DNA of 64,000 nt, taken from contig NC_015422.1 of the NCBI RefSeq assembly GCF_000204645.1, forward strand, positions 62,001 to 126,000. The letters run 5' to 3'. Within the stretch, counting starts at the first letter, position 1. Each line of letters begins with the position of its first letter. Made by a program: the position numbers and the translations under genes. Positions 6,689 through 63,980 of this stretch are shown here, in pieces. Origin of the DNA: Alicycliphilus denitrificans K601 (lineage in GTDB: Bacteria > Pseudomonadota > Gammaproteobacteria > Burkholderiales > Burkholderiaceae_C). A model generated the notes under the pieces. That model was not told the DNA's origin, did no database searches, and saw only the letters and a program-made list of their open reading frames with translations.

Positions 6689-6753
6689 GTTTCAAGCGGA
6701 AAATGCCTCCATGGCTTATCAGGCAAGCGCTAGATGCTATATAAAAAATAGTA
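6689..6753 (-). repeat. Dispersed Comamonadaceae-type repeat, copy R1
   Basis: Low-GC element between parA and the hydrolase gene. Read on the minus strand it has the family order: ATAGC, then AGCGCTTG, a short loop, AAGC, GGAGGC, an ATTT tract, and GCTTGAAA. See the findings for the family comparison. Confidence 0.75.
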
Positions 6754-6760
6754 ATACCGC

Positions 6761-7303
6761 ATGCATCCTTTCCAGGTACTCCTTCTGCCCGGCTGGCAGG
6801 ACTCCGGCCCTGGCCACTGGCAAACCGAGTGGGAGCGCCTGCACGGCTACCGGCGCGTGCAGCAGCACGACTGGACGCGCCCGCTGCGCGGCGACTGGAG
6901 CGCGCGCCTGGAGGAGGTGGTGGCCGACGCCCCGGGCGAGGTGCTGCTGGCCGCGCACAGCCTGGGTTGCATACTCGCCGCGTGGTGGGCTGCGCACACG
7001 CGCCACGCGCGCAAGGTGCACGGCGCGCTGCTGGTGGCGCCGGGCGACGTGCAACGGCCCGACCTGGCCGCGCAGATCCGCGGCTGGGCGCCCATCGCGC
7101 GCCGGCCGCTGCCCTTTCCCGCCGTGCTGGCGGGCAGCCGCGACGACCCGTACTGCGCCTTCGAGCGTGCGCGCGCCATGGCGCAGGACTGGGGCGCGCG
7201 CTTCGTCGACCTGGGCGCGCGCGGGCACGTCAACGCCGAATCGGGGCTGGGCGACTGGCCCGAGGGCCATGCGCTGCTGCAAACACTGATAAACAAGGAC
7301 TGA
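6761..7303 (+). CDS. RBBP9/YdeN-type alpha/beta hydrolase
   Basis: Serine hydrolase of 180 aa. The start LLLPGWQDSGPGHWQTEWE is the RBBP9/YdeN signature, the nucleophile is Ser67 in AHSLGC, the acid is Asp128 or Asp129 in SRDDPY, and the base is His156 in GHVN, so the triad is intact. The substrate is unknown. It is inserted between parA and parB and ends 5 bp before the parB start, implying co-transcription with parB. No direct link to partition is known to me. Confidence 0.88.
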   Translation: MHPFQVLLLPGWQDSGPGHWQTEWERLHGYRRVQQHDWTRPLRGDWSARLEEVVADAPGEVLLAAHSLGCILAAWWAAHTRHARKVHGALLVAPGDVQRPDLAAQIRGWAPIARRPLPFPAVLAGSRDDPYCAFERARAMAQDWGARFVDLGARGHVNAESGLGDWPEGHALLQTLINKD

Positions 7304-7308
7304 AGAAC

Positions 7309-8226
7309 ATGGTCACCAAGAAACCCAAGGGCCTGGGCCGCGGCCTGGAAGCACTGCTGGGCCCCAAGGTCGCTGACAAGGCCGAGCAGGCCCAGGCCGA
7401 GGCGCAGGGCCTGCCCAGCACGCTGGCGCTCGACCAGCTCGTGCCCGGCGTCTACCAGCCGCGCACGCGCATGGACGAGGGCGCGCTGTACGAGCTGGCC
7501 GAGAGCATCAGGGCCCAGGGGGTGATGCAGCCCATCCTCGTGCGCCGGCTGGGCAATGGCGAGAACGTCGGCAAGTACGAGATCATCGCCGGCGAGCGGC
7601 GCTTCCGCGCTTCCAGGCTCGCGGGCCTGAACGAGGTGCCCGTGCTCGTGCGCGACGTGCCCGATGAGGCCGCCGCCGCCATGGCGCTCATCGAGAACAT
7701 CCAGCGCGAGGACCTGAACCCGCTGGAGGAGGCCCAGGGCCTGCAGCGCCTCATCCGCGAGTTCGGCCTCACGCACGAGCAGGCGGCCCAGGCCGTGGGC
7801 CGCTCGCGCAGCGCGGCCAGCAACCTGCTGCGCCTGCTGAACCTGGCCGAGCCGGTGCAGACCATGCTCATGGCCGGCGACATCGACATGGGCCATGCGC
7901 GCGCGCTGCTGGCACTGGACCGTGCCACGCAGATCACGGCGGGCAACCAGATCGCGGCCAGGAAGCTGTCGGTGCGCGAGGCCGAGGGCCTGGTCAAGAA
8001 GCTGGGCGCCGAGTTCAACCTCACGCCGCAAAAGCCCAAGAAGGACAAGTCGCGCGACATGAAGCGCATCGAGGAAGAGCTGTCCGACCTGCTCATGGCC
8101 GAGGTCGAGGTGCGCGTGAAGAAGCGCGTCAAGCGCGGCAGCCGCACCGAGGAGATGGGCGAGCTGGCCATCGCGTTCGGCTCGCTGGAGGCGCTCAACG
8201 GCCTCATCGAGCGCCTGCGCGGCTGA
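7309..8226 (+). CDS. parB: Chromosome-partitioning protein ParB (Spo0J), parS-binding CTPase clamp
   Basis: A 305-aa ParB. The N-terminal KPKGLGRGLEALLG segment (about 6-18) is the peptide that stimulates ParA, GERRFR at 95-100 is the CTP-binding/arginine-patch motif, ENIQREDLNPLEEA follows, and THEQAAQAVGRSRSAASNLLRLL is the helix-turn-helix that reads parS (THEQAAQAVGRS then RSAASNLLRLL). The C-terminal part after about 245 is the dimerisation domain. The ATG at 7309 is preceded by AAGGAC. Its target sites are the five sequences at 713-5184. Confidence 0.96.
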   Translation: MVTKKPKGLGRGLEALLGPKVADKAEQAQAEAQGLPSTLALDQLVPGVYQPRTRMDEGALYELAESIRAQGVMQPILVRRLGNGENVGKYEIIAGERRFRASRLAGLNEVPVLVRDVPDEAAAAMALIENIQREDLNPLEEAQGLQRLIREFGLTHEQAAQAVGRSRSAASNLLRLLNLAEPVQTMLMAGDIDMGHARALLALDRATQITAGNQIAARKLSVREAEGLVKKLGAEFNLTPQKPKKDKSRDMKRIEEELSDLLMAEVEVRVKKRVKRGSRTEEMGELAIAFGSLEALNGLIERLRG

Positions 8227-8250
8227 CCCGGCGCCTTCTGCCCCCTGCCG

Positions 8251-9030
8251 ATGCGCCTGTCCTGGCCGCTGCCCGCCTTGCTTGCCTGGGGCGTGGCGTG
8301 GCTGCTGCACGCCGTGCTGCAGCCGCGCCTGGGCACCCTGGCGTCGTTGCTGGGCGCCACCGGCGTCGGCGTGCTGGCCAGCCTGTGGGGGCAGAGCTGG
8401 TGGCGCAGGGCGTTGATCGCGCTGGGCTTTCCGCTGTCGCTCGCGCTCACGGGCGCGGCAGGGTTGCCGGCCTGGGCATGGCTGCTGCCGCTGGCCGTGC
8501 TGCTGCTGGTCTACCCCCTGAATGCATGGCGCGACGCGCCTCTGTTCCCCACGCCGCGCGGCGCGCTGCACGGGCTCGACGCCCTGGCGCCGCTGCCGCC
8601 GGGCGCGGCCGTGCTCGACGCGGGCTGTGGCCTGGGCGACGGGTTGCTGGCGCTGCGCGCCGCCTATCCCCGGGCGCGGCTGCACGGGCTGGAATGGAGT
8701 TGGCCACTCGCTCTGCTGTGCCGCCTGCGCTGCCCCTGGGCGCATGTGCGGCGCGGGGACATCTGGGCGGCCGGCTGGGGCGATTACCAGCTGGTGTACG
8801 TGTTCCAGAGGCCCGAAAGCATGGCGCGCGCGGCGGCCAAGGCGCTGGCCGAGATGGCGCCGGGAAGCTGGCTGGTCAGCCTGGCGTTCGAGGTGCCGGG
8901 CCTGGCTGCCTGCGCCCGGCTGCCCGGGTTTGCCGGGCAGGGAGTGTGGATCTACCGTATGGGCGCCAGCGCCGCCGCGCCGCGCGGAGCAACAAAAGAA
9001 TGCGGGGCATCTGCAGATGTAACGCTATGA
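8251..9030 (+). CDS. Membrane-anchored class I SAM-dependent methyltransferase
   Basis: A 259-aa protein with about three hydrophobic segments in residues 1-92 and a class I methyltransferase fold after that; AAVLDAGCGLGDGLLALR from about 119 is SAM motif I. The substrate is unknown; the membrane anchor suggests a lipid, quinone or membrane-protein substrate (inference). It follows parB by 24 bp on the same strand. No clear ribosome-binding site precedes the ATG, so the start could be off by a few codons. Confidence 0.75.
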   Translation: MRLSWPLPALLAWGVAWLLHAVLQPRLGTLASLLGATGVGVLASLWGQSWWRRALIALGFPLSLALTGAAGLPAWAWLLPLAVLLLVYPLNAWRDAPLFPTPRGALHGLDALAPLPPGAAVLDAGCGLGDGLLALRAAYPRARLHGLEWSWPLALLCRLRCPWAHVRRGDIWAAGWGDYQLVYVFQRPESMARAAAKALAEMAPGSWLVSLAFEVPGLAACARLPGFAGQGVWIYRMGASAAAPRGATKECGASADVTL

Positions 9031-9089
9031 TTTCACGCAATTCAACCGCGCTTATCGAACCATTCACCGTGATAGAGAGGAAGGAAACC

Positions 9090-10130
9090 ATGTCCCGCAA
9101 AACCCTGTCCCTGCTGGCGGCCGCCTGCGCCGTCGTCGCCCTTGCCGGATGCGAAACCACCAATATGAAGATGGGGAGCCAGGATGCCAAGACCGTGGCC
9201 ACCGGCGCGGCTGCGGGAGGCAGCGCCGCCAATGAGAGCAGCCAGCTCGAACGCTGCCAGTCGCCGCTGGGCACGGTGTCGCTGGTCGAGAACCAGGACG
9301 CCGGCTGGTACACCATCCTGCGCAACGAATACAAGCTGCCGCCCACGGCCAACCTGCTGCGCCTGCTGATCCAGCAGTCCAACTGCTTCGTCGTGGTGGA
9401 GCGCGGCGCGGCCGGCATGCGCGCCATGGACCGCGAGCGCCAGCTCATGGGCTCGGGTGAGATGCGCGGCGGCAGCAATTTCGGCAAGGGCCAGATGGTG
9501 GCCTCCGACTATGGCCTGTCGCCCGAAATCATCTTCAGCAACAACGATGCCGGTGGCGTGGGCGGTGCGCTGGGCGGCCTGATCGGCGGCGGCAGGGGGC
9601 GTGCGCTGGCGGCCATCGGCGGCAGCCTCAAGACGCGCGAGGCCAGCGCCATGCTGACTCTGGTGGACAACCGTTCGGGCGTGCAGGTGGCGGCCTCCGA
9701 GGGCAGCGCCTCCAAGAGCGACTTCGCCGGCTTCGGCGGCATCTTCGGCGGCAGCGCCGGCGGCGGCCTGGGCGGCTACCAGAACACGGCCCAGGGCAAG
9801 GTGATCACGGCTGCGTTCATGGACGCCTACAACCAGATGGTCGTGGCGCTGCGCAACTACAAGGCGCAGAGCGTGCAGGGCCAGGGCCTGGGCGGCGGCG
9901 GCAAGCTGGGCGTGGACGGTGGTGCCGCACCGTCGCAGACCAAGGCCGGCGCGGCCATGTCCGTGCGCGAGGCGCAGGAGCGCCTGAACGCCCTGGGCTA
10001 CAACGTGGGTACGCCCGACGGCTCCGCTGGCCCGAAGACGGCCCGCGCGCTGCGCGAGTTCCAGCAGCAGCAGGGCCTGCCCGTGACGGGCCGTCTGGAC
10101 GCGGCCACAGCCGGCGCGCTGTCGCGCTGA
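9090..10130 (+). CDS. CsgG/HfaB-like lipoprotein with C-terminal peptidoglycan-binding domain
   Basis: A 346-aa envelope lipoprotein. The lipobox LAGC ends at Cys21 after a short hydrophobic signal. The middle (about 60-265) resembles the CsgG/HfaB curli-secretion/holdfast-anchor type, with LPPTANLLRLLIQQSNCFVVVERG, a glycine-rich stretch (GGVGGALGGLIGGG), and VITAAFMDAYNQMV. The C-terminus (about 290-346) is a PG_binding_1 repeat with QERLNALGYNVGTPDG and LREFQQQQGLPVTG. It would be an outer-membrane anchor that also contacts peptidoglycan. SD AAGGAA precedes the ATG. A strong terminator follows at 10158. The fusion with a peptidoglycan-binding module is a notable architecture. Confidence 0.85.
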   Translation: MSRKTLSLLAAACAVVALAGCETTNMKMGSQDAKTVATGAAAGGSAANESSQLERCQSPLGTVSLVENQDAGWYTILRNEYKLPPTANLLRLLIQQSNCFVVVERGAAGMRAMDRERQLMGSGEMRGGSNFGKGQMVASDYGLSPEIIFSNNDAGGVGGALGGLIGGGRGRALAAIGGSLKTREASAMLTLVDNRSGVQVAASEGSASKSDFAGFGGIFGGSAGGGLGGYQNTAQGKVITAAFMDAYNQMVVALRNYKAQSVQGQGLGGGGKLGVDGGAAPSQTKAGAAMSVREAQERLNALGYNVGTPDGSAGPKTARALREFQQQQGLPVTGRLDAATAGALSR

Positions 10131-10157
10131 ACCGGGATCATTTCCCGCATGCGAGGC

Positions 10158-10182
10158 AAAAGCGGCCCCCGGGCCGCTTTTT
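10158..10182 (+). terminator. Rho-independent terminator after the lipoprotein gene
   Basis: AAAAGCGGCCC, two-base loop, GGGCCGCTTTTT: an 11-bp stem ending in a T run, 27 bp after the stop codon. Because the stem begins with an A run it could also work on the opposite strand for the AraC gene. Confidence 0.85.
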
Positions 10183-10209
10183 GCTTGTGCGCCGCCGGCC
10201 GCCCGTGGT

Positions 10210-11115
10210 TCATGCCCCCAGGAACCGCCCCGGCGCCAGTCCCACGGTGCGGCGCACCATGGCGCTGAAGGCACTGGGGCTGTTGTAGCCCAGCTCGGCC
10301 GCGATCTGGTTGATGGGCCGGCGGCCCGCGGCCAGAGCCACGGCGCGCGCCAGGATGACCTGCTGGCGCCACTGCGTGAAGGTGCTGGAGAGCTCCTGGC
10401 GGAACAGGCGCGCCACCGTGCGCGGGCTCGCGCCCGTGTCGCGCGCCCAGTCGGCCAACGTCTCGTGGCGCGTGGGGTCGGCGATCACCGCCTCGCACAG
10501 GTGGCGCAGGCGCTTGTCGCGCGGCAGGTCCACGCCCAGGCGCACGCTGCTGGCGCGGCGCAGCTCGTCGAGGATCAGCGCGCTCAGGTGGCGCTCGCGG
10601 TGGAGCAGCTCGGGTGGCAGCGGCGGGGCGTCGTCGGGCTCGGAGGGCATCTCGCGCACCAGGGCGCGCAGCAGGTCGGACACCTCCAGCACGCGGCACT
10701 GGCGCCAGGGTTCCTCCTGCGCGCGCGCCACGCCCGGGCCGCAGCGCCCGGGCGGCTGGTGGAAGTACAGCGTGCGCAGGTCGGCGTCCTCCACCATGGT
10801 CACGGCGTGCTCCACGCCGGGCGGGATCCACAGCGCGCGCGAGGGTGGCACGATGTAGGCACCGTCCGGTACCGTCAGGCGCAGCACGCCCGTGGTGGAG
10901 ATGGCCACCTGCGCCCAGGGGTGGCTGTGCGGCCGCACCTGCGTGTCGGCGCGCAGCTCGCGGTGCTTGGCGCGCACGGGTCGCGCGCGGCTGGGCACGA
11001 ACAGATGGGGCGTGAGCGACTCCACGTACGACAGCACGCGCGCCGCCCGCGGCGCATGGGCAGGGGCGGCCTGCGCATCGGCGTGGCCGGGTGGCGGGGC
11101 GGCGTGAATTGGCAT
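10210..11115 (-). CDS. AraC-family transcriptional regulator
   Basis: About 301 aa. The N-terminal cupin sensor (about 40-150) has HSHPWAQVAISTTGVL and WIPPGVEH; the C-terminus carries the two AraC HTHs, LADWARDTGASPRTVARLFR and INQIAAELGYNSPSAFSAMV. The ATG at 11115 is used; a GTG two codons upstream (11121) is possible. It is divergent from an MFS transporter gene 59 bp away and is the obvious candidate to control it. Effector unknown. Confidence 0.92.
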   Translation of the reverse strand: MPIHAAPPPGHADAQAAPAHAPRAARVLSYVESLTPHLFVPSRARPVRAKHRELRADTQVRPHSHPWAQVAISTTGVLRLTVPDGAYIVPPSRALWIPPGVEHAVTMVEDADLRTLYFHQPPGRCGPGVARAQEEPWRQCRVLEVSDLLRALVREMPSEPDDAPPLPPELLHRERHLSALILDELRRASSVRLGVDLPRDKRLRHLCEAVIADPTRHETLADWARDTGASPRTVARLFRQELSSTFTQWRQQVILARAVALAAGRRPINQIAAELGYNSPSAFSAMVRRTVGLAPGRFLGA

Positions 11116-13371: not shown

Positions 13372-13438
13372 GTTTTGCAAGAAAAGGCCTCCAACGCCCT
13401 GTGCATGGGCGCTATAAGCTACTGAATTGGTAGCTTTC
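13372..13438 (-). repeat. Dispersed repeat, copy R2
   Basis: Minus-strand copy between mscS and the FAD-linked dehydrogenase gene. The hairpin core is AGCGCCC ... GGGCGTT instead of GCGCTTG ... CAAGCGC, so both arms have changed together and pairing is kept. It is followed by GGAGGCC and a TTTT tract as in the other copies. Confidence 0.7.
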
Positions 13439-13449: not shown

Positions 13450-14874
13450 TCACAGCGCGAAGATCTTCCCCGGGTTCAGGATGTTCTTCGGGTCCAGCGC
13501 CCGCTTGATGGCGCGCATCATGTCCACTGCGCCCGCGCCCGTTTCGTCCACCAGGAAGCCCATCTTGTGCACGCCCACGCCGTGCTCGCCCGTGCAGGTG
13601 CCGCCCATGGACAGGGCGCGCGCCACGAGCCGGTGGTTGAGCTGTTCGGCGCGCTCGCGCTCCTCGGGCACGGCGGGGTTGATCAGGTAGCCGAAGTGGA
13701 AGTTGCCGTCGCCCACGTGGCCGACGAGGAAGTAGGGGATGCCGCTGGCGTCGGCCTCGTCTACCGAGGCGAGCAGGCAGTCGGCCAGGCGGCTGATGGG
13801 CACGCAGGTGTCGGTGCTGATGGCCTTGCAGCCCGGGCGGCTCTGCACGGCGGCGAAGTAGGCGTTGTGCCGCGCGGTCCACAGGCGCGTGCGCTCCTCG
13901 GGCGTGCTGGCCCACTCGAAGGCCTGGCCGCCGAACTCGCTGGCGATGCCCTGCACCGTCTCGGCCTGCTCCTGCACGCTGGCGGCCGAGCCGTGGAACT
14001 CCATGAGCAGCATGGGCTCCTCGCGCAAGGCCAGCCTGCTGTGCGCGTTGACCATGCGCACGCTGTTGGCGTCGATGAGCTCCACGCGCGCGATGGGCAC
14101 GCCCAGCTGTATGGTCTGAATGACGGTGCGCACGGCGGCCTCGATGCTGGGGAACGAGCAGATGGCCGCGCTCACCGCCTCGGGCAGCGGGTACAGGCGC
14201 ACGGTGACCTCGGTGAAGATGCCCAGCGTGCCTTCGCTGCCCACCATCAGGCGCGTCAGGTCGTAGCCGGCGCTGCTTTTCTTGGCGCGCGTGCCGGTGC
14301 GGATCACGTCACCGTTGGCGGTGACGACTTCGAGCGCCAGCACGTTCTCGCGCATGGTGCCGTAGCGCACGGCGTTGGTGCCGCTGGCGCGCGTGGCGGC
14401 CATGCCGCCGATGCTGGCGTCGGCGCCGGGGTCGATGGGGAAGAACAGGCCCGTGTCCTTGATGGCCTCGTTCAGCGCCTTGCGCGTGATGCCGGGCTGC
14501 ACGGTGACGGTGAGGTCGTCGGCGTCGATGGACAGCACCTTGTTCATGCGGCCCACGTCGATGCTGATGCCACCCTGCACGGCCAGCAGGTGGCCTTCGA
14601 GCGAGGAGCCCGCGCCGTAGGCGATCACCGGCACCTCGTGCTGCGCGGCCAGGCGCATGGCGTCCTGCACGTCCTGCGTGCTCTCGGCGAACACCACGGC
14701 CGCGGGCGGCGGCGCCTGGATCGAACCCTCGTCGCGCCCGTGCTGCTCGCGCACGGCCTGGGCCGTGGATAACTGCGCGCCGAACCGCTGGGACAGCGCG
14801 TCCAGCAGGGCCTGGGGCACGGGGCGCGGGTCTATCCGGGGCTGCAACTGGGCGGCGTGGGCAGGGGCGTTCAT
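13450..14874 (-). CDS. FAD-linked D-2-hydroxyacid dehydrogenase (D-lactate/glycolate oxidase type)
   Basis: A 474-aa flavoprotein of the LDHD/GlcD group. The PCMH FAD-binding domain spans about 55-235 (GAGSSLEGH, DPGADASIGGMAATRASGTNAVRYG quoted in parts: DPGADASIGGMA then TRASGTNAVRYG), and the FAD-oxidase C-terminal domain about 240-474 has VGHVGDGNFHFG and GTCTGEHGVGVHKMGFL, whose histidines bind metal and substrate. It would oxidise D-lactate or a related 2-hydroxy acid to the keto acid, passing electrons to the respiratory chain. It appears to be a single-gene unit. Confidence 0.92.
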   Translation of the reverse strand: MNAPAHAAQLQPRIDPRPVPQALLDALSQRFGAQLSTAQAVREQHGRDEGSIQAPPPAAVVFAESTQDVQDAMRLAAQHEVPVIAYGAGSSLEGHLLAVQGGISIDVGRMNKVLSIDADDLTVTVQPGITRKALNEAIKDTGLFFPIDPGADASIGGMAATRASGTNAVRYGTMRENVLALEVVTANGDVIRTGTRAKKSSAGYDLTRLMVGSEGTLGIFTEVTVRLYPLPEAVSAAICSFPSIEAAVRTVIQTIQLGVPIARVELIDANSVRMVNAHSRLALREEPMLLMEFHGSAASVQEQAETVQGIASEFGGQAFEWASTPEERTRLWTARHNAYFAAVQSRPGCKAISTDTCVPISRLADCLLASVDEADASGIPYFLVGHVGDGNFHFGYLINPAVPEERERAEQLNHRLVARALSMGGTCTGEHGVGVHKMGFLVDETGAGAVDMMRAIKRALDPKNILNPGKIFAL

Positions 14875-15361: not shown

Positions 15362-15937
15362 ATGGGAAACAGACTGACACAGATCGCAACGCGCACCGGC
15401 GACGACGGCACCACCGGCCTGGGCGACAACACGCGCGTGTCCAAGGCCAGCGGCCGCCCGCATGCCATGGGCGACGTGGACGAGCTCAACTCCCACATCG
15501 GCCTGCTGCTGTGCGAGCCCATGCCGCAGGACGTGCGCGAACTGCTGATCGACGTGCAGCACCAGCTGTTCAACCTGGGCGGCGAGCTGTGCATGCCCGG
15601 CTACGAGCTGCTCAAGGACGATGCGCTGCTGCAGCTGGACAACGCGCTGGCGCGCTACAACGCCGAGCTGCCGCGGCTGCAGGAGTTCATCCTGCCCGCG
15701 GGCACGCGCGCGGCCTGCCAGGCCCATGTGTGCCGCACGGTGGCGCGCCGCGCCGAGCGCGCCGTGGTCGCTCTGCAGCAGGCCGAGACCATGCGCGCCG
15801 CGCCGCGCCAGTACCTGAACCGCCTGTCCGACCTGCTGTTCGTGCTCTCGCGCGTGCTCAACCGCATGGACGGCGGCAACGAGGTGTACTGGAAGAGCGA
15901 GCGCCTGGCGCGGCAGGCGGATGATGCTACTGAATAG
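15362..15937 (+). CDS. PduO-type cob(I)alamin adenosyltransferase
   Basis: A 191-aa corrinoid adenosyltransferase that moves the 5'-deoxyadenosyl group of ATP to cob(I)alamin. The N-terminal ATP-binding loop TRTGDDGTTGLGDNTRVSK (about 9-27), CRTVARRAERAVV and YLNRLSDLLFVLSRVLNR (about 156-173) are the family blocks. AGGAGG sits eight bases before the ATG. The last codons and the stop overlap repeat R3. It fits a cell that uses adenosylcobalamin; the metH module at 56.3 kb uses the methyl form. Confidence 0.95.
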   Translation: MGNRLTQIATRTGDDGTTGLGDNTRVSKASGRPHAMGDVDELNSHIGLLLCEPMPQDVRELLIDVQHQLFNLGGELCMPGYELLKDDALLQLDNALARYNAELPRLQEFILPAGTRAACQAHVCRTVARRAERAVVALQQAETMRAAPRQYLNRLSDLLFVLSRVLNRMDGGNEVYWKSERLARQADDATE

Positions 15938-15990
15938 ATAGCTTCTGGCGCTTGCTGAGCAAGCGCCGAGGCCCGAAATGGCTTGAAAAG
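15926..15990 (+). repeat. Dispersed repeat, copy R3 (best hairpin)
   Basis: Contains GGCGCTTGC TGA GCAAGCGCC, a perfect 9-bp stem with a 3-nt loop, followed by GAGGCC and GGCTTGAAAA. It overlaps the last codons of the adenosyltransferase gene, supplying its stop codon. Confidence 0.8.
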
Positions 15991-26891: not shown

Positions 26892-28967
26892 ATGGAAACC
26901 GATTCCCCCCCACCTTACGTTCCGCAGATCCGCCTGTACCAGGACTGGCTGCAGGCCCGGCGCGGCCTGCGGTTCGACGGCTACGACGCGCTGTGGCGCT
27001 GGTCCGTGACCGAGCTGGATGCCTTCTGGCAAAGCGTGTGGGACTACTTCGACCTGCAGTCGCCTACGCCGCACGATGCCGTGCTCGCCAGGAACGTGAT
27101 GCCCGGCGCGCGGTGGTTCCCCGGCGCGCAGGTGAACTACGCGCGCCAGGTGCTGCGCCACGTGGATGCGGCGCACGCGGCCGGCCAGCCGGCCCTCGTC
27201 GCGCGCAATGAACGCGGCCAGCACCGCGAACTGTCCTGGCCCGCGCTGCGCCGGCAGGTGGCGGCGCTGGCGCTGCACCTCAAGGCCCAGGGCGTAGGGC
27301 CCGGCGACCGCGTGGCGGCCTACCTGCCCAACATTCCCGAGACCATCGTGGCCTTCCTGGCCTGCGCCAGTATCGGCGCCGTGTGGAGCGTGTGCGCGCC
27401 CGACATGGGAACGAACGCCGTGCTGGACCGCTTCCGCCAGATCGAGCCCAAGGTGCTGTTCGCCGTGGATGGCGTGAGCTACGGCGGGCGCGACCACGAC
27501 CGCTGCGCCGTGCTGGCCGAGCTGCGCGCGCAGCTGCCCACGCTGCGGCACGTGGTGCTGGTGAACAACCTCGATGCCACAAAAACAATAGCTGATACCG
27601 CTTGTTACGCAAGCATTACAGCCAGAAAAGATGCTGAAACCGCGGCCTTCGAGCCGCTGTGGCTGCCCTTCGACCACCCGCTGTGGATCGTGTACTCCAG
27701 CGGCACCACGGGAATGCCGAAGCCCATCGTGCACGGCCATGGCGGCATGCTGCTGGTGATGCTGCAGCTGGCCGTGCTGCACAACGACATCGGCTGCAGC
27801 TACGCCCCCAACTCCTTCGGCGAGCGCTTCCACTGGTACAGCTCCACGGGCTGGATCATGTGGAACGCCCAGGTCGGCGGCCTGCTGGGCGGCACCACCT
27901 GCGTGCTGTACGACGGCAACCCGGGCGGCAGCAAGGAGCGTCCCGACTGGGGCGTGCTGTGGCGCATGGCGGCCGAAACCGGCGTGACCTTCTTTGGCGC
28001 CGGCGCCGCGTTCTACGGCAACTGCATGAAGGCCGGCATCACGCCGGCGCAATGCGGCGACCTGTCGGCGATCCGCGCGCTGGGCAGCACCGGATCGCCG
28101 CTGCCCGCCGAGGTGCAGCAATGGGGATCGGATTTCATGGCGGTTGCGGGCGTGCCGCGGGTCTGGTGGGCCAACATCTCCGGCGGCACGGACTTCGCGG
28201 GCGCCTTCCTCGGCGGCCACCGCGAGCTGCCGCAGACGCCCGGGCGCATGCAATGCCGCATGCTGGGCGCGGCCGTCGAGGCCTGGGACGAGCAGGGCCG
28301 CCCCGTGCTGGACGCCGTGGGCGAGCTGGTCTGCACCCAGCCCATACCGTCCATGCCCCTGTACCTGTGGGGCGACGCGGACGGCGCGCGCTACCGCGCC
28401 AGCTACTTCGACATGTACCCGCCGGGCCATGGCCGGCGGCCCGGTGGCGGCGACCTGGGGCCCGAGGCCGGCGCCGTCTGGCGCCATGGCGACTGGATAG
28501 AGATCGGATCCGCAGCCCATCCCGGCTGCCTGATCTACGGCCGCAGCGACGCCACCATCAACCGCCACGGCCTGCGCATGGGCACGAGCGAGATCTACAG
28601 CGCGGTGGAGGCCCTGCCCGAGGTGCTCGACAGCCTCGTCGTCGATCTGGAGTACCTGGGCCGTGAGAGCTGGATGCCGCTCTTCGTGGTGCTGCGCGAG
28701 GGCGTGGCGCTGGACGACGCGCTGCGCGGGCGCATCGATGACGCCATCCGCGCTGCGCTGTCGCCGCGCTTCGTGCCCGACGACATCTTCGCCGTGGCCG
28801 AAGTGCCGCGCACCCTGAGCGGCAAGAAGCAGGAACTGCCCATCAAGAAGCTGCTGCTGGGCCAGCCCCTCGCCAAGGTGGTCAACAGGGACGCCATGGC
28901 CAACCCCGGCTGCCTGGATTGGTACGTGGATTTCGCCGCCCGCCGTGGCGCCGCGGCGGCTGCATAA
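26892..28967 (+). CDS. Acetoacetyl-CoA synthetase (acetoacetate--CoA ligase)
   Basis: A 691-aa AMP-forming ligase that activates acetoacetate (or a similar short keto/hydroxy acid) to its CoA ester. WFPGAQVNYARQVL near 77-90 is the ACAS N-terminal block, YSSGTTGMPKPIVHGHGG (about 273-290) the adenylate P-loop, GDWIEIG and YGRSDATINRHGLRMGTSEIY the hinge region, and LSGKKQELPIKKLL carries the C-terminal catalytic Lys. The end CLDWYVDFAARR is typical of acetoacetate ligases. An in-frame copy of the dispersed repeat (R4) replaces a surface loop just before the P-loop. The start ATG lacks an obvious ribosome-binding site. Confidence 0.93.
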   Translation: METDSPPPYVPQIRLYQDWLQARRGLRFDGYDALWRWSVTELDAFWQSVWDYFDLQSPTPHDAVLARNVMPGARWFPGAQVNYARQVLRHVDAAHAAGQPALVARNERGQHRELSWPALRRQVAALALHLKAQGVGPGDRVAAYLPNIPETIVAFLACASIGAVWSVCAPDMGTNAVLDRFRQIEPKVLFAVDGVSYGGRDHDRCAVLAELRAQLPTLRHVVLVNNLDATKTIADTACYASITARKDAETAAFEPLWLPFDHPLWIVYSSGTTGMPKPIVHGHGGMLLVMLQLAVLHNDIGCSYAPNSFGERFHWYSSTGWIMWNAQVGGLLGGTTCVLYDGNPGGSKERPDWGVLWRMAAETGVTFFGAGAAFYGNCMKAGITPAQCGDLSAIRALGSTGSPLPAEVQQWGSDFMAVAGVPRVWWANISGGTDFAGAFLGGHRELPQTPGRMQCRMLGAAVEAWDEQGRPVLDAVGELVCTQPIPSMPLYLWGDADGARYRASYFDMYPPGHGRRPGGGDLGPEAGAVWRHGDWIEIGSAAHPGCLIYGRSDATINRHGLRMGTSEIYSAVEALPEVLDSLVVDLEYLGRESWMPLFVVLREGVALDDALRGRIDDAIRAALSPRFVPDDIFAVAEVPRTLSGKKQELPIKKLLLGQPLAKVVNRDAMANPGCLDWYVDFAARRGAAAAA
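27580..27642 (+). repeat. Dispersed repeat, copy R4, inside the acetoacetyl-CoA synthetase gene
   Basis: Low-GC stretch within a GC-rich gene: ACAATAGCTGATACCGCTTG, 5-nt loop, CAAGC, then GCCAGAAAA and GCTGAAACC. It matches the order of the other copies on the same strand and is read through as about 21 extra-looking residues (from ATKTIADTACYAS to RKDAET). Confidence 0.75.
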
Positions 28968-32232: not shown

Positions 32233-33258
32233 ATGGACAACGATCTGTTTGCCGACGCGGCCCGCCAGGTGCTGGCCGATCAATGCACGCCTGCGGTGGT
32301 GCGCGCCATCGAGGCCGGCGGCCGCGCCGCGCCCGAGGCCGCCGCGCTCTGGGCGCAGCTGGAGGCCACGGGCCTGGCCGACGCGCTGCTGCCCGAAAGC
32401 CAGGGCGGCGCGGGCCTTGCGCTGTCGCAGGTCTTCGGCGTGCTGGAGCAATGCGGCGCGCACGCGCTGCCGCTGCCGCTGGGCGAGACCATGGTGGCGC
32501 GCGCGCTGCTTGCGGCCGCTGGCGTGGACCGGCCCGCGGGCGGCATCGCGCTGGCGCGCGGCGAGCGCACGCCGGAGGGCGGCCTGCGCTGCGCCCTGGT
32601 GCGCGGCGGCCGCGTGGCGCATGCGGTGCTGGCGCAGGCCGGCGACGCCTGGCACCTGCTGGGCGTGGCCGGCGCGCAGGAGGCGCCCCAGGCGCTGGCG
32701 CTCGACGCCGCGCTGGCCTGGACGCCCGCGCAGCTGCAGGCCGCGCCCGCGGTGGCCGTGGACGCCGCGCTCGACCTGCGCACCCTGCAGGCCGCCGTGC
32801 TCGCGCCGCAGATGGCCGGCGCGGCGATGCACGTCTTCCAGCGCACGCTGCAGTACGCCAACGAGCGCCAGCAGTTCGGCCGCCCCATCGGCAAGTTCCA
32901 GGCCATACAGCACCAGCTGGCCGTGATGAGCGAGCATGTGTTCGCCGCGCGCATGGCCGCGCAGCTGGGCTGCAGCGGCGCCGGCGTGCGGCCCGACCGC
33001 CTGCGCGTGGCGACGGCCAAGGCGCGCTGCAGCGAGGCGGCGCTGGCCGTCGCCGAGCTCGCCCACGCCATCCACGGCGCCATCGGCTTCACCGCCGAAT
33101 ACGACCTGCAGCTGTTCACGCGCCGCCTGCACGCCTGGCGCCAGGCGGCGGGCAGCGAGTCCTACTGGCACGACGTGGCCGGCCAGGCGCTGCTGGAGCA
33201 CCAGGGGCTGACGCTGGACGTGGTGCGCCGCATCACGGACGTGGAAAGCGTGCTTTGA
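32233..33258 (+). CDS. Acyl-CoA dehydrogenase, subunit-like 2 (cassette B)
   Basis: A 341-aa short acyl-CoA dehydrogenase homologue. The C-terminal domain has YANERQQFGRPIGKFQAIQH and HAIHGAIGFTAEYDLQLFTR, but the middle beta-domain is reduced and the SEP/FAD-binding block seen in its neighbour is missing. Such pairs often form heterotetramers, so I infer it works with the 31056-32213 product. The ATG at 32233 is preferred over 32227 because AAGGA then has normal spacing. Confidence 0.85.
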   Translation: MDNDLFADAARQVLADQCTPAVVRAIEAGGRAAPEAAALWAQLEATGLADALLPESQGGAGLALSQVFGVLEQCGAHALPLPLGETMVARALLAAAGVDRPAGGIALARGERTPEGGLRCALVRGGRVAHAVLAQAGDAWHLLGVAGAQEAPQALALDAALAWTPAQLQAAPAVAVDAALDLRTLQAAVLAPQMAGAAMHVFQRTLQYANERQQFGRPIGKFQAIQHQLAVMSEHVFAARMAAQLGCSGAGVRPDRLRVATAKARCSEAALAVAELAHAIHGAIGFTAEYDLQLFTRRLHAWRQAAGSESYWHDVAGQALLEHQGLTLDVVRRITDVESVL

Positions 33259-33306
33259 AACCGATAGCTGCTGCCGCTTGCCTGCAATGGGTTTTCAAAT
33301 GGAAAC
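33257..33306 (+). repeat. Dispersed repeat, copy R5 (short)
   Basis: ATAGCTGCTGCCGCTTGCCT with CAATGGG and a TTTTCAAA tail, starting at the stop codon of the second acyl-CoA dehydrogenase gene. The right hairpin arm is degenerate. Confidence 0.6.
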
Positions 33307-33363
33307 ACATGGAAATCCTTGCATGACAGGCGCTGGCAGCTCCTCTTTTTGAATGGAGAACCC

Positions 33364-34152
33364 ATGGCCTTCCTGACCCTAGAGCGCGACGGCGCCATCC
33401 TGACCGTCACCATGAACCAGCCCGAAACGCGCAACGCCCTCACCGGCAACACGGCGGTGCAGGAATTCGTGCAGCTGTGCGACGACGTGCGCAAGGACGC
33501 GGGCGTGAAGGTGATCATCCTCACTGGCGCCGGCCCCATCTTCAGCTCGGGCGGCAACGTCAAGGACATGAAGCGCTTCTTCGACGACGCGCTCACGCCC
33601 GACCTGATCCGCGAGGAATACCGCCAGGGCATACAGCGCATCCCGCAGGCGCTGTACAACCTCGACGTGCCGGTGATCTGCGCCGTCAACGGCCCGGCCA
33701 TCGGCGCGGGGCTGGACCTGACCTGTATGTGCGACATCCGCATCGCAGCGGAGACGGCCACCTTCGCCGAGAGCTTCGTGCGCGTGGGCATCGTCCCTGG
33801 CGACGGCGGCGCCTGGCTGCTGCCGCGCGCCGTTGGCATGGCCAAGGCGGCCGAGATGGCCTTCACCGGCGAGGCCATCAATGCACAAGAAGCGCTGGCC
33901 TGCGGCCTCGTGAGCCGCGTGGTGCCCGCCGGCGAGCTGCTGCCCACGGCCCGTGCCCTGGCCGGAAGAATAGCCGCCAACCCCGGCGCCGTGATGCGCA
34001 TGACCAAGCGCCTGCTGCGCGAGGGCCAGCTCGCCACGCTGGACTCGCTGCTGGAACTGTCGGCCGGCTGCCAGGCCATCGCCCACAAGACGGCCGACCA
34101 CCGCGAGGCCGTCACCGCCTTCATCGAAAAGCGCGCGCCGCGCTTTCAGTGA
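33364..34152 (+). CDS. Enoyl-CoA hydratase/isomerase family protein (cassette B)
   Basis: A 262-aa crotonase. FSSGGNVKDMKRFFDD (about 60-75) and GPAIGAGLDLTCMCDIRIA form the oxyanion hole and CoA site; FAESFVRVGIVPGDGGAWLL is the active-site segment. It would hydrate the enoyl-CoA made by the adjacent dehydrogenases. GGAG precedes the ATG at 33364. It closes cassette B, 29 bp before pssA. Confidence 0.92.
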   Translation: MAFLTLERDGAILTVTMNQPETRNALTGNTAVQEFVQLCDDVRKDAGVKVIILTGAGPIFSSGGNVKDMKRFFDDALTPDLIREEYRQGIQRIPQALYNLDVPVICAVNGPAIGAGLDLTCMCDIRIAAETATFAESFVRVGIVPGDGGAWLLPRAVGMAKAAEMAFTGEAINAQEALACGLVSRVVPAGELLPTARALAGRIAANPGAVMRMTKRLLREGQLATLDSLLELSAGCQAIAHKTADHREAVTAFIEKRAPRFQ

Positions 34153-51679: not shown

Positions 51680-51747
51680 GGTTAGCTATTGATAGAAGAG
51701 CTGGTCACGCTTGATTGGCAAGCGTTGGGGGCCATTTTGACTGTGAA
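51680..51747 (+). repeat. Dispersed repeat, copy R6
   Basis: TAGCTATTGATAGAAGAGCT then CACGCTTG, 5-nt loop, CAAGCGTTGGGGGCC, and an ATTTTGA tail, in the gap between ilvA and aidB. The stem ACGCTTG/CAAGCGT is 7 bp. Confidence 0.75.
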
Positions 51748-51754: not shown

Positions 51755-53416
51755 TCAGGCGGGAAAGGCGCGCGCCAGGATGGCGTCCACGTCCATGCCG
51801 CGCGTGTCGATGGCCCCCGCCACGCGGCCCGCGCCGCCGTCGCCCAGGCGCGTGGCGATGAACGCGTCGGCCACGCAGGCGGGCGCATGCGCGCGCAGCA
51901 GGCAGGCCTGGGCCACGAGCACCAGGCGCTGCGCGAGCACGCGGCCCAGGGCTTCGAGTTCATCGGCTGATGCGGCCAGCAGCGCCTGCAGGCCCTGCAG
52001 CGCGGCGGCGATGCGCGGCTCGCCCTGCGCGGCGGGCTGCAGCTCGGCCAGCAGGGCGCGGGCGGCCCCGGGCTCGCGGGCCAGGGCGCGCAGCACGTCC
52101 AGGCACATGACGTTGCCCGAGCCCTCCCAGATGGAGTTGACGGGCGCCTCGCGGAACAGCCGCGCCATCACGCCGTCCTCCACGTAGCCATTGCCGCCGA
52201 AGACCTCCATGGCTTCGCCCGTCAGCTCCACGGCGCGCTTGCAGACCCAGAACTTGGCGGCGGGCGTCATGGCGCGCTTCCAGGCACGCTGGGCGGGGTC
52301 GCCGTCGCCCTCGCGCTCGAAGGCCTCGGCCAGGCGCATCAGCAGCACCAGGGAGGCCTCGCTCTCCAGCGCCAGGTCGGCCAGCACGGCGCGCATCAGG
52401 GGCTGCTCCGCCAGGGCCTTGCCGAAGGCGTGGCGCTGGCGCGCATAGGCGATGGCCTGCACCGTCGCCTGGCGCAGGATGGCGGCGCTGCCCGCCACGC
52501 AGTTGAGGCGCGTGTAGCCGGCCATCTCGATGATGGTGGGGATGCCGCGGCCCTCCTCGCCCATGAGCACGCCCCAGGCGTCCTCAAACTCCACCTCGCC
52601 GCTGGCGTTGCTGCGGTTGCCCAGCTTGTCCTTCAGGCGCTGCACGCGCACCGCGTTGCGGCTGCCGTCGGGGCGCCAGCGCGGCACGTAGAAGCATGCG
52701 AACGGGCCGCCCTCCTGCACGCGCGCCGTCACCAGGTGCGCGTCGCATTGCGGCGCCGAGAAGAACCACTTGTGCCCGCGCAGCAGGTATTCGCCGCCGC
52801 GCCCGCCCGCGCCCACGGCCGTGGCCACGGTGGTGTTGGCGCGCACGTCGGAGCCGCCCTGCTTTTCCGTCATGCCCATGCCGAGCCAGATGCTGGCCTT
52901 GTCCTGCACGGGCAGGTCGCGCGCGTCGTAGGCGTCGCTGTAGAGGCGCTCCTGCAGCTGCGCCCAGAGCGCCGGTTCCTTCTGCAGCAGGGGGATGGCG
53001 GCCTGCGTCATCGTCGCGGGGCACAGCGTGCCCTGCTCCACCTGGCCGTGCAGGTAGAAGCCCGCGGCCCAGGCGGCCCAGCGGCCCGCGCGCGCCTCCC
53101 TGAAGGGCTGGCTCACGAGGCCCTGCCCGCGGTACAGCGCCATGAGCGCGTGCCAGCCCGGGTGGAACTCCAGCGCGTCGATGCGCCGCCCGCGCGAGTC
53201 GAAGCGCCGCAGCTCGGGCAGATGGCGGTTGGCCTGCTCGGCCAGCATATAGGTTTCGGTGCGCCCCAGGCGCGCGGCGTAGCCGTTCAGCGCGGGGCGG
53301 GCCCAGCCGGCGCCCGTGCGCGCCAGCGCCTCGCAAAGCGCCGGGTCGGTGGCCAGCGGGTCGTAGTCGTAAAGCTCGGGAAACTGGTTGAAGACATGGT
53401 GGGTGGTCCAGTCCAT
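51755..53416 (-). CDS. aidB: AidB-like acyl-CoA dehydrogenase (alkylation response)
   Basis: A 553-aa flavoprotein. The N-terminus (WTTHHVFNQFPELYDYDPLA) and ALCEALARTGAGWARPALNG match the AidB extension; GMGMTEKQGGSDVRANTT, GHKWFFSAPQCDAHLV, LKDKLGNRSNASGEVEFEDA and NSIWEGSGNVMCLDVLRALA (with the catalytic Glu) follow in order. E. coli AidB binds DNA and is induced by alkylation; a related role is likely but not certain. It is a single gene between repeat R6 and mgtA. Confidence 0.9.
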   Translation of the reverse strand: MDWTTHHVFNQFPELYDYDPLATDPALCEALARTGAGWARPALNGYAARLGRTETYMLAEQANRHLPELRRFDSRGRRIDALEFHPGWHALMALYRGQGLVSQPFREARAGRWAAWAAGFYLHGQVEQGTLCPATMTQAAIPLLQKEPALWAQLQERLYSDAYDARDLPVQDKASIWLGMGMTEKQGGSDVRANTTVATAVGAGGRGGEYLLRGHKWFFSAPQCDAHLVTARVQEGGPFACFYVPRWRPDGSRNAVRVQRLKDKLGNRSNASGEVEFEDAWGVLMGEEGRGIPTIIEMAGYTRLNCVAGSAAILRQATVQAIAYARQRHAFGKALAEQPLMRAVLADLALESEASLVLLMRLAEAFEREGDGDPAQRAWKRAMTPAAKFWVCKRAVELTGEAMEVFGGNGYVEDGVMARLFREAPVNSIWEGSGNVMCLDVLRALAREPGAARALLAELQPAAQGEPRIAAALQGLQALLAASADELEALGRVLAQRLVLVAQACLLRAHAPACVADAFIATRLGDGGAGRVAGAIDTRGMDVDAILARAFPA

Positions 53417-59940: not shown

Positions 59941-60906
59941 TCATTCGGGTTGGATGCCGGCCTGCTGGATCAGCGTGCGCCAGTGCGTCAGTTGCCCGGC
60001 CACGTACTGGGCGAATTCCTCGGGCGTCTTGCTGGGCCAGACCTGGAAGCCGATCTGCGCGAGCTTGTCCTGCAGATCCTTGTCGGCCAGCACGGCCTGC
60101 AGCTCGGTGTTCAGGCGCAGCACCACGGCCGGGGGCAGGCCCGCGGGGCCGAAGATGCCGTTCCACGAGGTCAGGTCGAAGCCCTTCACGGTCTTGCCGA
60201 TGGGCGGCACGCCCGGCAGCAGCGGCGTGGGCTCGGCCGTGGTGATGCCCAGCGTGCGCACCTTGTCGGTCTTGAGCATGCCCATGCCCGAACCCAGGTC
60301 GGCCACGTACACCTGCACCTGGCCGCCCACCAGGTCGGTCATGGCCTGGGGGCTGGATTTGTAGGGCACGCCCAGCACGTCGATCTTGGCGATGTGCTTG
60401 ATGCTCTCCATGGCCACCAGCGAGGTGCTGTTGGGCGTGGCGTAGCTCAGCTTGCCCGGGTTGGCGCGCGCGTAGTCCAGCAGCTCGGCCAGCGTCTTCA
60501 CCGGCAGCGCGGGGTGCACGGCCAGTGCGAAGGGCAGCTCGCCCACGCGTGCCACGGGCGTGAAGTCCTTGATTGGGTCGTACTTCAGGTTCTTGTACAG
60601 CGCGGGGTTGGCCGAGTGCGAGGTGTTCGTCGTCATGAACAGCGTGTAGCCGTCGGGCTTGGCCTTGGCGACGAACTGCGCGGCCACCTGGGCATTGGCG
60701 CCGGGCTTGTTGTCCACGACCACCGGCTGCTTGAGCCGCGCGGCCAGCCCCGAGGCCACGGCGCGCGCCACCGAATCGGTGCCGCTGCCGGCCGCGAAGG
60801 GTACGACGAGGGTCACGGGCGCATTGGGATAGGCCTGCGCCAGGGCCGCCGTGGCGCCGATGGCGAGGGCGCACGCGGCGAGCGTGGCGCGCAGGATGGT
60901 CTTCAT
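59941..60906 (-). CDS. Bug/TctC-family solute-binding receptor (cassette D)
   Basis: A 321-aa periplasmic receptor with signal MKTILRATLAACALAIGATA and cleavage after ALA-Q. YPNAPVTLVVPFAAGSGTDS and VVDNKPGANAQVAAQFVAKA are Bug blocks. First gene of cassette D (Bug, cupin, acyl-CoA dehydrogenase, then LysR and metH on the same strand). The promoter region 60907-61109 has a long imperfect inverted repeat at 60958-60991. Confidence 0.93.
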   Translation of the reverse strand: MKTILRATLAACALAIGATAALAQAYPNAPVTLVVPFAAGSGTDSVARAVASGLAARLKQPVVVDNKPGANAQVAAQFVAKAKPDGYTLFMTTNTSHSANPALYKNLKYDPIKDFTPVARVGELPFALAVHPALPVKTLAELLDYARANPGKLSYATPNSTSLVAMESIKHIAKIDVLGVPYKSSPQAMTDLVGGQVQVYVADLGSGMGMLKTDKVRTLGITTAEPTPLLPGVPPIGKTVKGFDLTSWNGIFGPAGLPPAVVLRLNTELQAVLADKDLQDKLAQIGFQVWPSKTPEEFAQYVAGQLTHWRTLIQQAGIQPE

Positions 60907-60957
60907 GGCTTGTCTCCTGTAATAGTTGGTTGCGCGCCAATGGTGATGGAGTCAGCG

Positions 60958-60991
60958 ATTCATGTCCAATTCAATAAGCGGACCAATGAAT
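60958..60991. promoter_or_regulatory. Imperfect inverted repeat upstream of the cassette D Bug gene
   Basis: ATTCATGTCC ... GGACCAATGAAT, AT-rich arms around a 12-bp spacer, about 50 bp upstream of the Bug start. Candidate regulator-binding site, possibly for the cassette's LysR protein. Confidence 0.35.
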
Positions 60992-61109
60992 TCGATTTGC
61001 GAATGGTTTGGGCATCATTCGGGGGCCGCGCGCGGGGGGCCGCATCCGGAGCACGCACAATAGGCGCTTGGCGCCAGCCTTGCCCTGTCGCCTGGAATAT
61101 TGGTCAAAT

Positions 61110-63032
<1,923 letters not shown>

Positions 63033-63035
63033 CCC

Positions 63036-63716
63036 TTAGGCGCGGCGCAGCGTGAAGGTGCCGGGCCAGCGCTGTGCGACGGCCTGCGGAGGGGCCCAGG
63101 CGGGCGCGCCATCCGTGCGGCATTCCTGCAGCGCCCAGTGCTGTACGCCCTCGGCCGCCAGGGCGTCGGCGAGGGCCTGCAGGTCGTCATCGCCGTACAG
63201 GCCCGCGTTCCAGGTGGTGCGGCACTCATGGGCCACGCCGCTGGCGAGCACGAGCCGCAGCGACTCCCATGCCTTCGCCCCGCTGCCCGGCGTGCGCGTG
63301 ATCGCGTCGTAGCGGTGCAGCGGCGCCTTGATGTCCAGCCCCACCCAGTCGAGCAGCGGCAGCAGGGTGGCCAGCCGCTCGGGGTACATGCCGGCGGTGT
63401 GCAGCCCCGTGGCGAAGCCCATCGCGCGCACGCGCGCCAGCGCGTCGGGCAGGCCGGCCTGCAGCGTGGGCTCGCCGCCCGAGAACACCACGCCGTCGAG
63501 CAGGCCGCGCCGCGCGTGCAGCAACTGCTGCACGTCGGCCCAGGCGTGGGCCGTGGGCGTGGCGGCGTCGAGCAGCCCGGTGTTGTGGCAATAGCCGCAG
63601 CGCCAGGGGCAGCCCTGGCAGAACACCACGGCCGCGAGGCGGCCGGGGAAGTCGATGGTGGTGAGCGGCGTCAGGCCGCCGATGCGCAGCGCTTCAGCAG
63701 GCGTTGCTGCAGCCAC
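63036..63716 (-). CDS. nrdG: Anaerobic ribonucleotide reductase activase (NrdG-type radical SAM)
   Basis: A 226-aa radical-SAM enzyme that generates the glycyl radical on the class III reductase. VVFCQGCPWRCGYCHNTGLL holds the cluster cysteines Cys36, Cys40 and Cys43 (CxxxCxxC), with GGEP in VVFSGGEPTLQAG for SAM binding. The start is GTG at 63716, inside the end of the upstream small gene (23-bp overlap). Convergent with recQ, 3 bp apart. Confidence 0.9.
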   Translation of the reverse strand: MAAATPAEALRIGGLTPLTTIDFPGRLAAVVFCQGCPWRCGYCHNTGLLDAATPTAHAWADVQQLLHARRGLLDGVVFSGGEPTLQAGLPDALARVRAMGFATGLHTAGMYPERLATLLPLLDWVGLDIKAPLHRYDAITRTPGSGAKAWESLRLVLASGVAHECRTTWNAGLYGDDDLQALADALAAEGVQHWALQECRTDGAPAWAPPQAVAQRWPGTFTLRRA

Positions 63717-63894
63717 GCGCGTGCTCGGAGAAAAACTGGCGCTCGTTGTGCTCGCCCTGCTTGCCCACGTTGAAGCTGGCCACGGGGCGGTGGTAGCCCA
63801 TCACGCGGGTCCAGACCTCGCAGGGCTGGCGCTCGTCGTCGGTGAGCTGCACGGCGGCCAGGGCGGCTTGTTCGGTGGTGGAGAAATGGCTCAT
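63694..63894 (-). CDS. Stand-alone glycyl-radical tail resembling the NrdD C-terminus
   Basis: A 66-aa protein whose centre, TRVMGYHRPVASFNVGKQGE, matches the glycyl-radical loop of class III ribonucleotide reductases (RVxGY ... FN.GKQ.E..ER); Gly33 is the predicted radical site. The large catalytic domain is absent from this gene. AAGGAG precedes the ATG at 63894. It overlaps nrdG, so the two are translationally linked. The remaining C-terminal residues end in two cysteines (CSNAC). The partner nrdD is probably just beyond the right edge. Confidence 0.75.
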   Translation of the reverse strand: MSHFSTTEQAALAAVQLTDDERQPCEVWTRVMGYHRPVASFNVGKQGEHNERQFFSEHARGCSNAC

Positions 63895-63913
63895 GGTGAA
63901 CTCCTTGGGGGGT

Positions 63914-63980
63914 TGAAAACTACGGTTTTGATAGCTGCTTGCGCTTGATGGGTAAGGGATGGAGGCCGATTTGGCTTCAA
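63914..63980 (+). repeat. Dispersed repeat, copy R8
   Basis: TTTTGATAGCTGCTTGCGCT then TGATGGGTAAG, GGATGGAGGCCGATTT and GGCTTCAA, between the glycyl-radical gene and whatever lies upstream. It is the clearest sequence-level copy although its right hairpin arm is weak. Confidence 0.75.

Follow-up and report, generated by a model that had tools for sequence, protein, structure and literature searches.

A high-copy dispersed element of Alicycliphilus denitrificans K601 and some other Comamonadaceae, apparently held by selection and possibly read as duplex DNA

Copies of the element at the locus

The window analysed here is a stretch of 64,000 nucleotides of the genome of Alicycliphilus denitrificans K601 (contig NC_015422.1, positions 62,001 to 126,000 of the forward strand; positions below are counted from its first base). 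It carries eight copies of a dispersed element whose repeat loci had been listed in a first-pass annotation, and all eight were found at the positions given there. Judged by sequence comparison, copies of this element seem to be held in place by natural selection, mostly at gene ends. Coordinates of single copies are those of the core (alignment columns 13-75).

Together with ten other copies, the eight window copies form an ungapped alignment over 85 columns (18 rows), from which the covariance model R1 was built. R1 detected the eight copies with 38.3 to 69.2 bits (E 1.9e-10 to 1.5e-20). Since this test is partly circular, a weight matrix was also run whose 72 training copies came exclusively from other genomes (the relatives G020, G004 and G009). 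It returned the same eight loci with scores of 28.9 to 73.6, while the next site scored -7.0 and the top score in 20 first-order Markov shuffles of the window was 0.5. The G + C content of the 85-bp matches is 42-59%, compared to 69% for the whole window, in agreement with the low value noticed at first pass. The repeat is, however, larger than the roughly 60 bp assigned to it: the conserved columns span about 66-70 bp and include an additional RCTAY block and an A-/T-run 5' of ATAGC.

Seven of the eight copies lie between genes, as had been described for most of them. Copy 1 (6691..6753, minus strand) follows a ParA-like gene (5906-6676, plus strand, Pfam) in a codirectional gap and is antisense to the genes. 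Copy 2 (13373..13435, minus strand), a variant with GCGCCC/GGGCG arms, lies 14 nt past the stop of the minus-strand gene 13450-14874, and copy 3 (15925..15987, plus strand) occupies a convergent gap of 60 bp, with the stop of gene 15362-15937 falling within the element. The core of copy 5 (33251..33313, plus strand) overlaps the stop of gene 32233-33258. Here a minus-strand match (33284-33372) overlaps the copy, and as the matrix prefers this overlapping match (33290), copy 5 is regarded as composite or degenerate. Copy 6 (51684..51746, plus strand) lies in a codirectional gap of minus-strand genes, 8 nt past the stop of 51755-53416. Copy 7 (61098..61160, minus strand) is located in a divergent gap, 3 nt upstream of the called start of a RecQ-type helicase gene (61164-63032, plus strand, Pfam). 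Copy 8 (63918..63980, plus strand) is the top-scoring copy of the window; the start side of its left neighbour faces it, and its right neighbour is outside the window.

The exception is copy 4 (27575..27637, plus strand; 85-bp match 27,563-27,647), which lies in frame within the coding sequence (CDS) 26892-28967. The product has AMP-binding and ACAS_N domains (Pfam) and is presumably an acetoacetyl-CoA synthetase. An in-frame linker formed by the element is also present in the relatives G001, G003, G009 and G015, whereas the element-free genomes G010 and G012 have unrelated linkers at this position.

Anatomy and pairing

Column compositions were taken from 196 of 225 alignment rows, those exactly 85 bases long. 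The columns read, in order, RCTAY, an A-/T-run (columns 20-24), RTAGCTG, GCGCTTG, five bases, YAAGCGC, a GAGGCC block, a second run (columns 64-67) and CTTGAAA. A28, G29 and C30 are present in 98-100% of the copies. The element is nearly gap-free, with an almost fixed length of about 65-70 bp. An imperfect dyad, GCGCTTG-n5-CAAGCGC, is centred on column 45, next to an invariant AGCTG block, and is flanked by the two A-/T-runs, which are about 43 bp, or four helical turns, apart. The core site of IHF requires a G at the position of column 25, where 40% of the copies have one; the IHF and Fis consensus sequences were compared by eye only.

The first-pass annotation had concluded from a joint change of both arms that pairing is selected. 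Both arms do change together in the copy at 13.37 kb, but as a property of the family this holds only weakly. Of the two candidate hairpins, H1 has a fraction of standard pairs of 0.727, compared to 0.730 when whole arms are permuted, and hence no covariation. Its mismatches are chiefly A-C on the plus strand (GT 40, AC 142), and H1 was rejected as a true hairpin. H2 covaries slightly, and its outward extension pairs at 0.577 versus 0.556 in shuffles (reached by 1 of 1,000), in copies that were picked with a model rewarding pairing. The highest mutual information was found within the runs, which are either A-runs or T-runs and rarely mixed, and not between the paired columns of the stem. Folding of six window copies as single-stranded DNA, on both strands, gave clearly better values than shuffles for two of them (15,925 and 51,684); the top-scoring copy (63,918) does not fold better than its shuffles (DNA parameters). 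Since the runs hold the highest mutual information, the arms hardly covary and few copies fold better than shuffles, conservation concerns mainly sequence and spacing, and selection for pairing as the main constraint is not supported.

Copy number and distribution

A word search with at most two mismatches yielded 199 sites, compared to 17 for the reversed control. Covariance scans of whole genomes scored 37 to 150 candidates per genome, and copy numbers were instead estimated from sampled stretches. In 864 kb of the own genome (the window and 40 stretches of 20 kb), 92 R1 matches were obtained at E ≤ 0.001, 89 of them free of overlaps. This amounts to about 103 per Mb and an estimated 515 copies in the 4.995-Mb contig. 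Scanning thus found many further copies, in excess of shuffled expectation. The 75.5-kb second contig, scanned to base 75,400, gave no match at E 0.001, where about eight were expected. The densest genome sampled was G020, with 57 copies in ten 20-kb stretches, corresponding to about 1,230 in 4.32 Mb. Copies in the sampled stretches are mostly single and dispersed. One tandem array was observed (L183:18039-18621 in G020), with four copies at a spacing of about 165 bp, three of which are 94-97% identical.

Matches at E 0.001 were present in 16 of 39 relatives, comprising all seven genomes of the genus (own genome included) and 9 of 16 other genomes of the family, one of which (G021) has a single weak match only. 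None of the 16 genomes from other families of the order had a match at this threshold. In a wider draw, 39 of 120 family genomes matched at E 1e-6. An exact 25-base word was found in 53 stretches of named genomes, 41 of them titled Comamonadaceae or genera of this family and 12 belonging to metagenome-assembled genomes with broader labels (taxonomy verified for six genera and Comamonas). Among the strains that carry the element are Acidovorax temperans DSM 7270 and A. radicis N35. The element is a high-copy dispersed element of the Comamonadaceae, the family to which similar sequences had been assigned at first pass.

Among the 150 matches listed, plus-strand copies are somewhat more common on both replication arms (50:38 and 36:26; p 0.09 overall), the origin being placed by what we take to be its neighbour genes. 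This bias does not follow the arms, and an orientation linked to replication was rejected.

Placement relative to genes

Genes were called with a purpose-written script, and seven overlapping matches were removed before contexts were counted (225 reduced to 218). The 89 copies of the own genome comprise 42 in codirectional gaps, 20 in convergent gaps, 3 in divergent gaps, 21 within CDSs and 3 at stretch ends. When gaps of at least 45 bp were scored as occupied if they contained the midpoint of a copy, 19 of 52 convergent, 41 of 258 codirectional and 3 of 104 divergent gaps were occupied (p 2.2e-7), so that gene ends are favoured. G004 and G009 follow the same trend (8/18 convergent, 11/61 codirectional and 1/28 divergent; p 0.002). 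In codirectional gaps of at least 130 bp, the upstream stop was the nearer gene boundary in 11 of 15 cases in the own genome and in 10 of 15 in G020.

Such a position would suit an RNA element of the 3' untranslated region, whose hairpin acts in the transcript as a bidirectional terminator, attenuator or exonuclease block. The median distance between stop codon and core in the 42 codirectional cases is 2 nt, copies also occur in convergent gaps of 33 to 115 bp, and two of the six folded window copies lie clearly below their shuffles. Like intrinsic (Rho-independent) terminators, the element combines hairpin potential with an A/T run behind stops. Unlike them, its type of run is independent of the direction of transcription. 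A TTT run follows the hairpin at a frequency of 0.70 in 53 copies of the same orientation as the genes and of 0.73 in 45 opposite copies, counted over pooled genomes with some of the copies being orthologs. The AAA run, which would give U on the minus strand, shows no enrichment among opposite copies (0.29 vs 0.45). Nor does the wobble asymmetry of H2 flip with the transcribed strand, the ratio of GT to AC being 44:7 in same and 37:13 in opposite copies. With genomes pooled, 69 of 70 columns are indifferent to the direction of transcription, and the single column at p < 0.05 is below chance expectation. The codirectional copies of the own genome are oriented 21:21 with respect to their genes. 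Moreover, the next called start is at most 20 nt from the core in 22 of these 42 cases, which leaves little space for a new promoter past a terminator. A directional terminator as the sole reading was rejected on the grounds of run type, wobble and close starts, and a role at the RNA level in general appears unlikely. The first-pass proposal of a REP-like element (repetitive extragenic palindrome) or RNA-level signal stands as regards a dispersed repeat, while its RNA-level part is disfavoured.

Conservation at orthologous sites

Syntenic stretches of G003, G004, G005, G009 and G015 were searched for the flanks of 19 copies of the own genome, which yielded 55 orthologous gaps at 16 loci. In 51 of the 55 gaps the element was kept in the same orientation, with a score exceeding the 99th percentile obtained from shuffled gaps. 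The other four gaps are those of copy 2 in G004, of copy 5 in G009, which lacks the copy and has an unclear junction there, and of the weak copy L174:14542 in both G003 and G004. Counted by window copy, retention was 3/3 for copy 1, 0/1 for copy 2, 4/4 for copy 3, 3/3 of the gaps scored for copy 4 and 4/5 for copy 5. With a matrix derived from G020 only, the mean score was 42.6 for own copies and 38.6 for their orthologs (53 pairs, gap at least 70 bp), and locus means did not differ (p 0.23).

Identity between orthologs follows the information content of the columns, with values of 0.91 for high, 0.69 for middle and 0.59 for low information (34 pairs, 12 of them from three coding copies; Spearman 0.70). 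This test omitted 21 of the 55 pairs, which either came from the coding copy at 27,563 or had gaps whose lengths differed by more than 25. When the four coding copies were excluded and the columns were ranked from G020 only, the values were 0.80, 0.66 and 0.58 (22 pairs at 8 loci; confidence interval of the difference 0.16-0.27). Within the four coding copies, third codon positions were identical in 88 of 105 cases under high-information columns, in 84 of 150 under low-information columns and in 197 of 278 in the flanks. The corresponding values for first and second positions are 201/225, 212/285 and 521/587. Because column identity follows information content and third positions of coding copies are kept, we regard the element as selected. 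Homogenisation among copies was considered and rejected: paralogs are only 0.31 identical in the low-information columns, and exchange between copies therefore does not account for the constraint.

A passive relic of a mobile repeat that once spread in a burst, was tolerated behind genes and has decayed neutrally since then is very improbable in view of these values. The depletion of divergent gaps in the own genome could come from tolerance alone, the paralogs are highly diverged (median identity 0.50), and G020 has no placement preference. Under neutral decay, however, ortholog scores should not be as stable as they are, conserved columns should not change less than variable ones, and the third codon positions under strong columns should not be kept.

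Transposase genes and mobility

Comparison of 78 gap-free paralogs of the own genome gave an identity of 0.76 for the best pair, and none of the copies is recent. Among the five best pairs in G020, identities above 0.79 were confined to three members of the one local tandem array. The idea of a mobile element that is still moving is not borne out by these values.

A gene with the Y1_Tnp domain (PF01797) was detected in 31 of 39 genomes, mostly as a single gene, and also in five of seven genomes of the same family that lack the element. Around 20 Y1_Tnp loci (4-4.5 kb each; 15 from element-bearing genomes), one strong and one weak copy were found nearby. The own genome has a single Y1_Tnp gene (G000:C1:849028-849354), which is apparently unconnected with the element; no copy lies within 3.9 kb of it. 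The copies thus do not flank Y1 transposase genes, contrary to the association with a REP-associated tyrosine transposase (RAYT) that had been envisaged, and a RAYT partnership was rejected, with copies at only 2 of 20 loci and the gene present in element-free genomes.

An ancient spread by a RAYT or related HUH enzyme, which would use a single-stranded hairpin, a 5' RTAG guide and a CT cleavage site, followed by partial co-option, would still explain several features. RTAG (columns 26-29) immediately precedes an imperfect, extended stem, and CTAY, the complement of RTAG, occupies columns 15-18, with C and T at 93%. Copy 4 resembles an insertion in its CDS, and GT exceeds AC in H2 on one strand in every context. 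On the other hand, GTAG proper is a minority (A 77%, G 19% at column 26), H1, the complement, does not covary, and both the low identity of own copies and the distribution of Y1_Tnp genes speak against such a partner. A REP origin alone also leaves the column-specific constraint at orthologous sites unexplained, and we consider it slightly less likely than the RNA-level role.

Plasmids, integron cassettes and viral contigs

The consensus matches ten plasmid records, and in six of these DUF1010 is annotated beneath the match. Four plasmid contexts were viewed. In one of them the match lies among drug-resistance cassettes next to qacE-delta1, a context that we read as a class 1 integron. An IncP plasmid carries six copies in series, and on plasmids of Comamonas and Diaphorobacter the copy is found between genes or at a gene end. 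The 50,697 phage records searched contained no match to the consensus. Twelve stretches (L313-L324) of contigs that are viral by prediction only carry copies.

DUF1010 matches form arrays in G003, G005 and G015, while the own genome has one strong match with weak ones nearby. Arrays of DUF1010 matches or cassettes were observed in stretches L306, L307, L309, L296 and L297. A tandem glycine riboswitch (L307:1115-1334, G005) was noted some kb from the cassette array. Integron attC sites are bounded by R''/R' boxes of the form CTAAC...GTTAG. In L306, L309 and L297, boxes resembling such attachment sites alternate with elements, and in L305 they lie on both sides of the element. The element itself does not carry the boxes of an attC site in the cassettes of L296, L297, L305 and L306, where they lie outside it, as they also do in L309 except for one GTTAG inside a copy.

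The DUF1010 open reading frame (ORF) of the own genome (L300:1456-1698, G000:C1:3845653-3845895; 129.5 bits) begins in an element read antisense and ends in an attC-like repeat. Profile positions 1 to about 21 are covered by the element core in antisense and positions about 49 to 66 by the attC-like repeat, together about 39 of 66 positions. From this arrangement, much of Pfam family DUF1010 (PF06231) looks like a conceptually translated integron cassette, consisting of element antisense and attC site. The two are nevertheless distinct, DUF1010 being a protein profile and most chromosomal copies of the element lying outside such ORFs.

Comparison with known repeats

With REPs and bacterial interspersed mosaic elements (BIMEs), including REP doublets forming hairpins (REPINs), the element shares hundreds of copies, imperfect palindromes, both orientations and an intergenic location. 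It differs from these REP/RAYT systems in its longer unit of nearly fixed length, in conserved blocks outside the stem and in that an inverted doublet is not the unit. Further differences are that no flanking RAYT was found, that covariation is low and that the element is conserved locus by locus at low overall identity. Described REPs are bound by IHF, Pol I and gyrase, and they influence both the stability of mRNA and termination (PMC6006769).

The Beta-proteobacterial repeat element (BRE) is a repeat of 75-91 bp in Bordetella and Comamonadaceae (Hot et al. 2011, PMC3110155). It averages 69% G + C, is often arranged in tandem as a variable number of tandem repeats (VNTR), and reaches at most 29 reported copies (PMC3110155). 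In contrast, the present element has 42-59% G + C in the window, is mostly single and has hundreds of copies; this distinction follows the description of BRE and not its sequence. Another dispersed repeat, rich in G + C and about 125-145 bp long, was observed at L174:9741-9885 (G000:C1:3929741-3929885). Dozens of places in G003, G004, G005 and G015 match it with about 72-91% identity, and the sample of the own genome contains one more. This second repeat is possibly BRE-like.

In Rfam, six window matches at E ≤ 5 were obtained, none of them overlapping a copy. The names Acidovorax, Delftia and Comamonas were not found in a passage search of PMC3733652, PMC12306157, PMC4666352 and PMC6006769. 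No paper in the open-licence PubMed Central literature was recognised as describing the element, which does not by itself establish its absence from print.

Interpretation

We tentatively favour the view that the element is a selected DNA site specific to Comamonadaceae, a BIME-like docking site in duplex form for a putative DNA-binding protein or topoisomerase complex. It builds on the copy number observed in the samples, the spacing, the positions of copies in the own genome, their retention at orthologous sites, the constraint on individual columns and the indifference to the direction of transcription. A site of about 65-70 bp and near-fixed length, in this genus mostly directly behind stop codons, would be kept at each locus by purifying selection. 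The dyad, the AGCTG block and the runs four helical turns apart would suit a bent or wrapped complex, and docking might resemble the described binding of gyrase or IHF to BIMEs, with a presumed task in topology or chromosome organisation.

Several observations weigh against this docking site. In G020 a preference for gene ends is absent (3/16 convergent, 25/80 codirectional and 3/19 divergent gaps; p 0.29), and its copies lean to the same orientation (20:12). According to our home-made gene calls, 21 of the 89 own copies lie within CDSs. Within the window, copy 7 departs from the gene-end rule by its divergent gap and copy 8 adjoins a gene start. H2 exceeds shuffles by a small margin in standard pairs (0.818 vs 0.804; z 2.8, reached by 4 of 1,000 shuffles) and in Watson-Crick pairs (z 3.4, reached by 0 of 1,000), and its plus strand has GT 157 times and AC 43 times, as a hairpin of single-stranded DNA would likewise give. 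No match at E 1e-6 was obtained for 81 of the 120 sampled family genomes, and with about two thirds unmatched, the family at large manages without the element. The intergenic-only column contrast is smaller than the mixed one, and the ortholog evidence is limited to 8 to 16 loci and five relatives. Finally, it is from indifference to direction that we infer a protein reading the duplex, and the binder is putative.

Taken together, the family of copies is real and large and, by the evidence of orthologous sites, selected. The duplex docking site is the best-supported reading, ahead of an RNA-level role and of an ancient REP-like origin. A wider proposal is possible, though more doubtful than the docking site as such: some Comamonadaceae may have a genome-wide DNA address system of selected sites, 65-70 bp each and numbering 500 to 1,200 by estimate, whose duplex would be read by a putative clade-specific protein for chromosome organisation or topology, with integron cassettes also carrying the site and much of a Pfam family being its shadow.

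Interspersed bacterial repeats are often regarded as old or selfish DNA. For this element, constraint is measurable copy by copy at orthologous sites, which makes the question of whether repeats serve their host testable. DUF1010, which annotators have applied to plasmid genes of several genera, is suggested to be largely translated cassette DNA and not a protein family. The results suggest that the element is a DNA landmark not previously described and read by a putative factor; if true, the favoured reading would mark a missing DNA-binding factor in a large environmental family.

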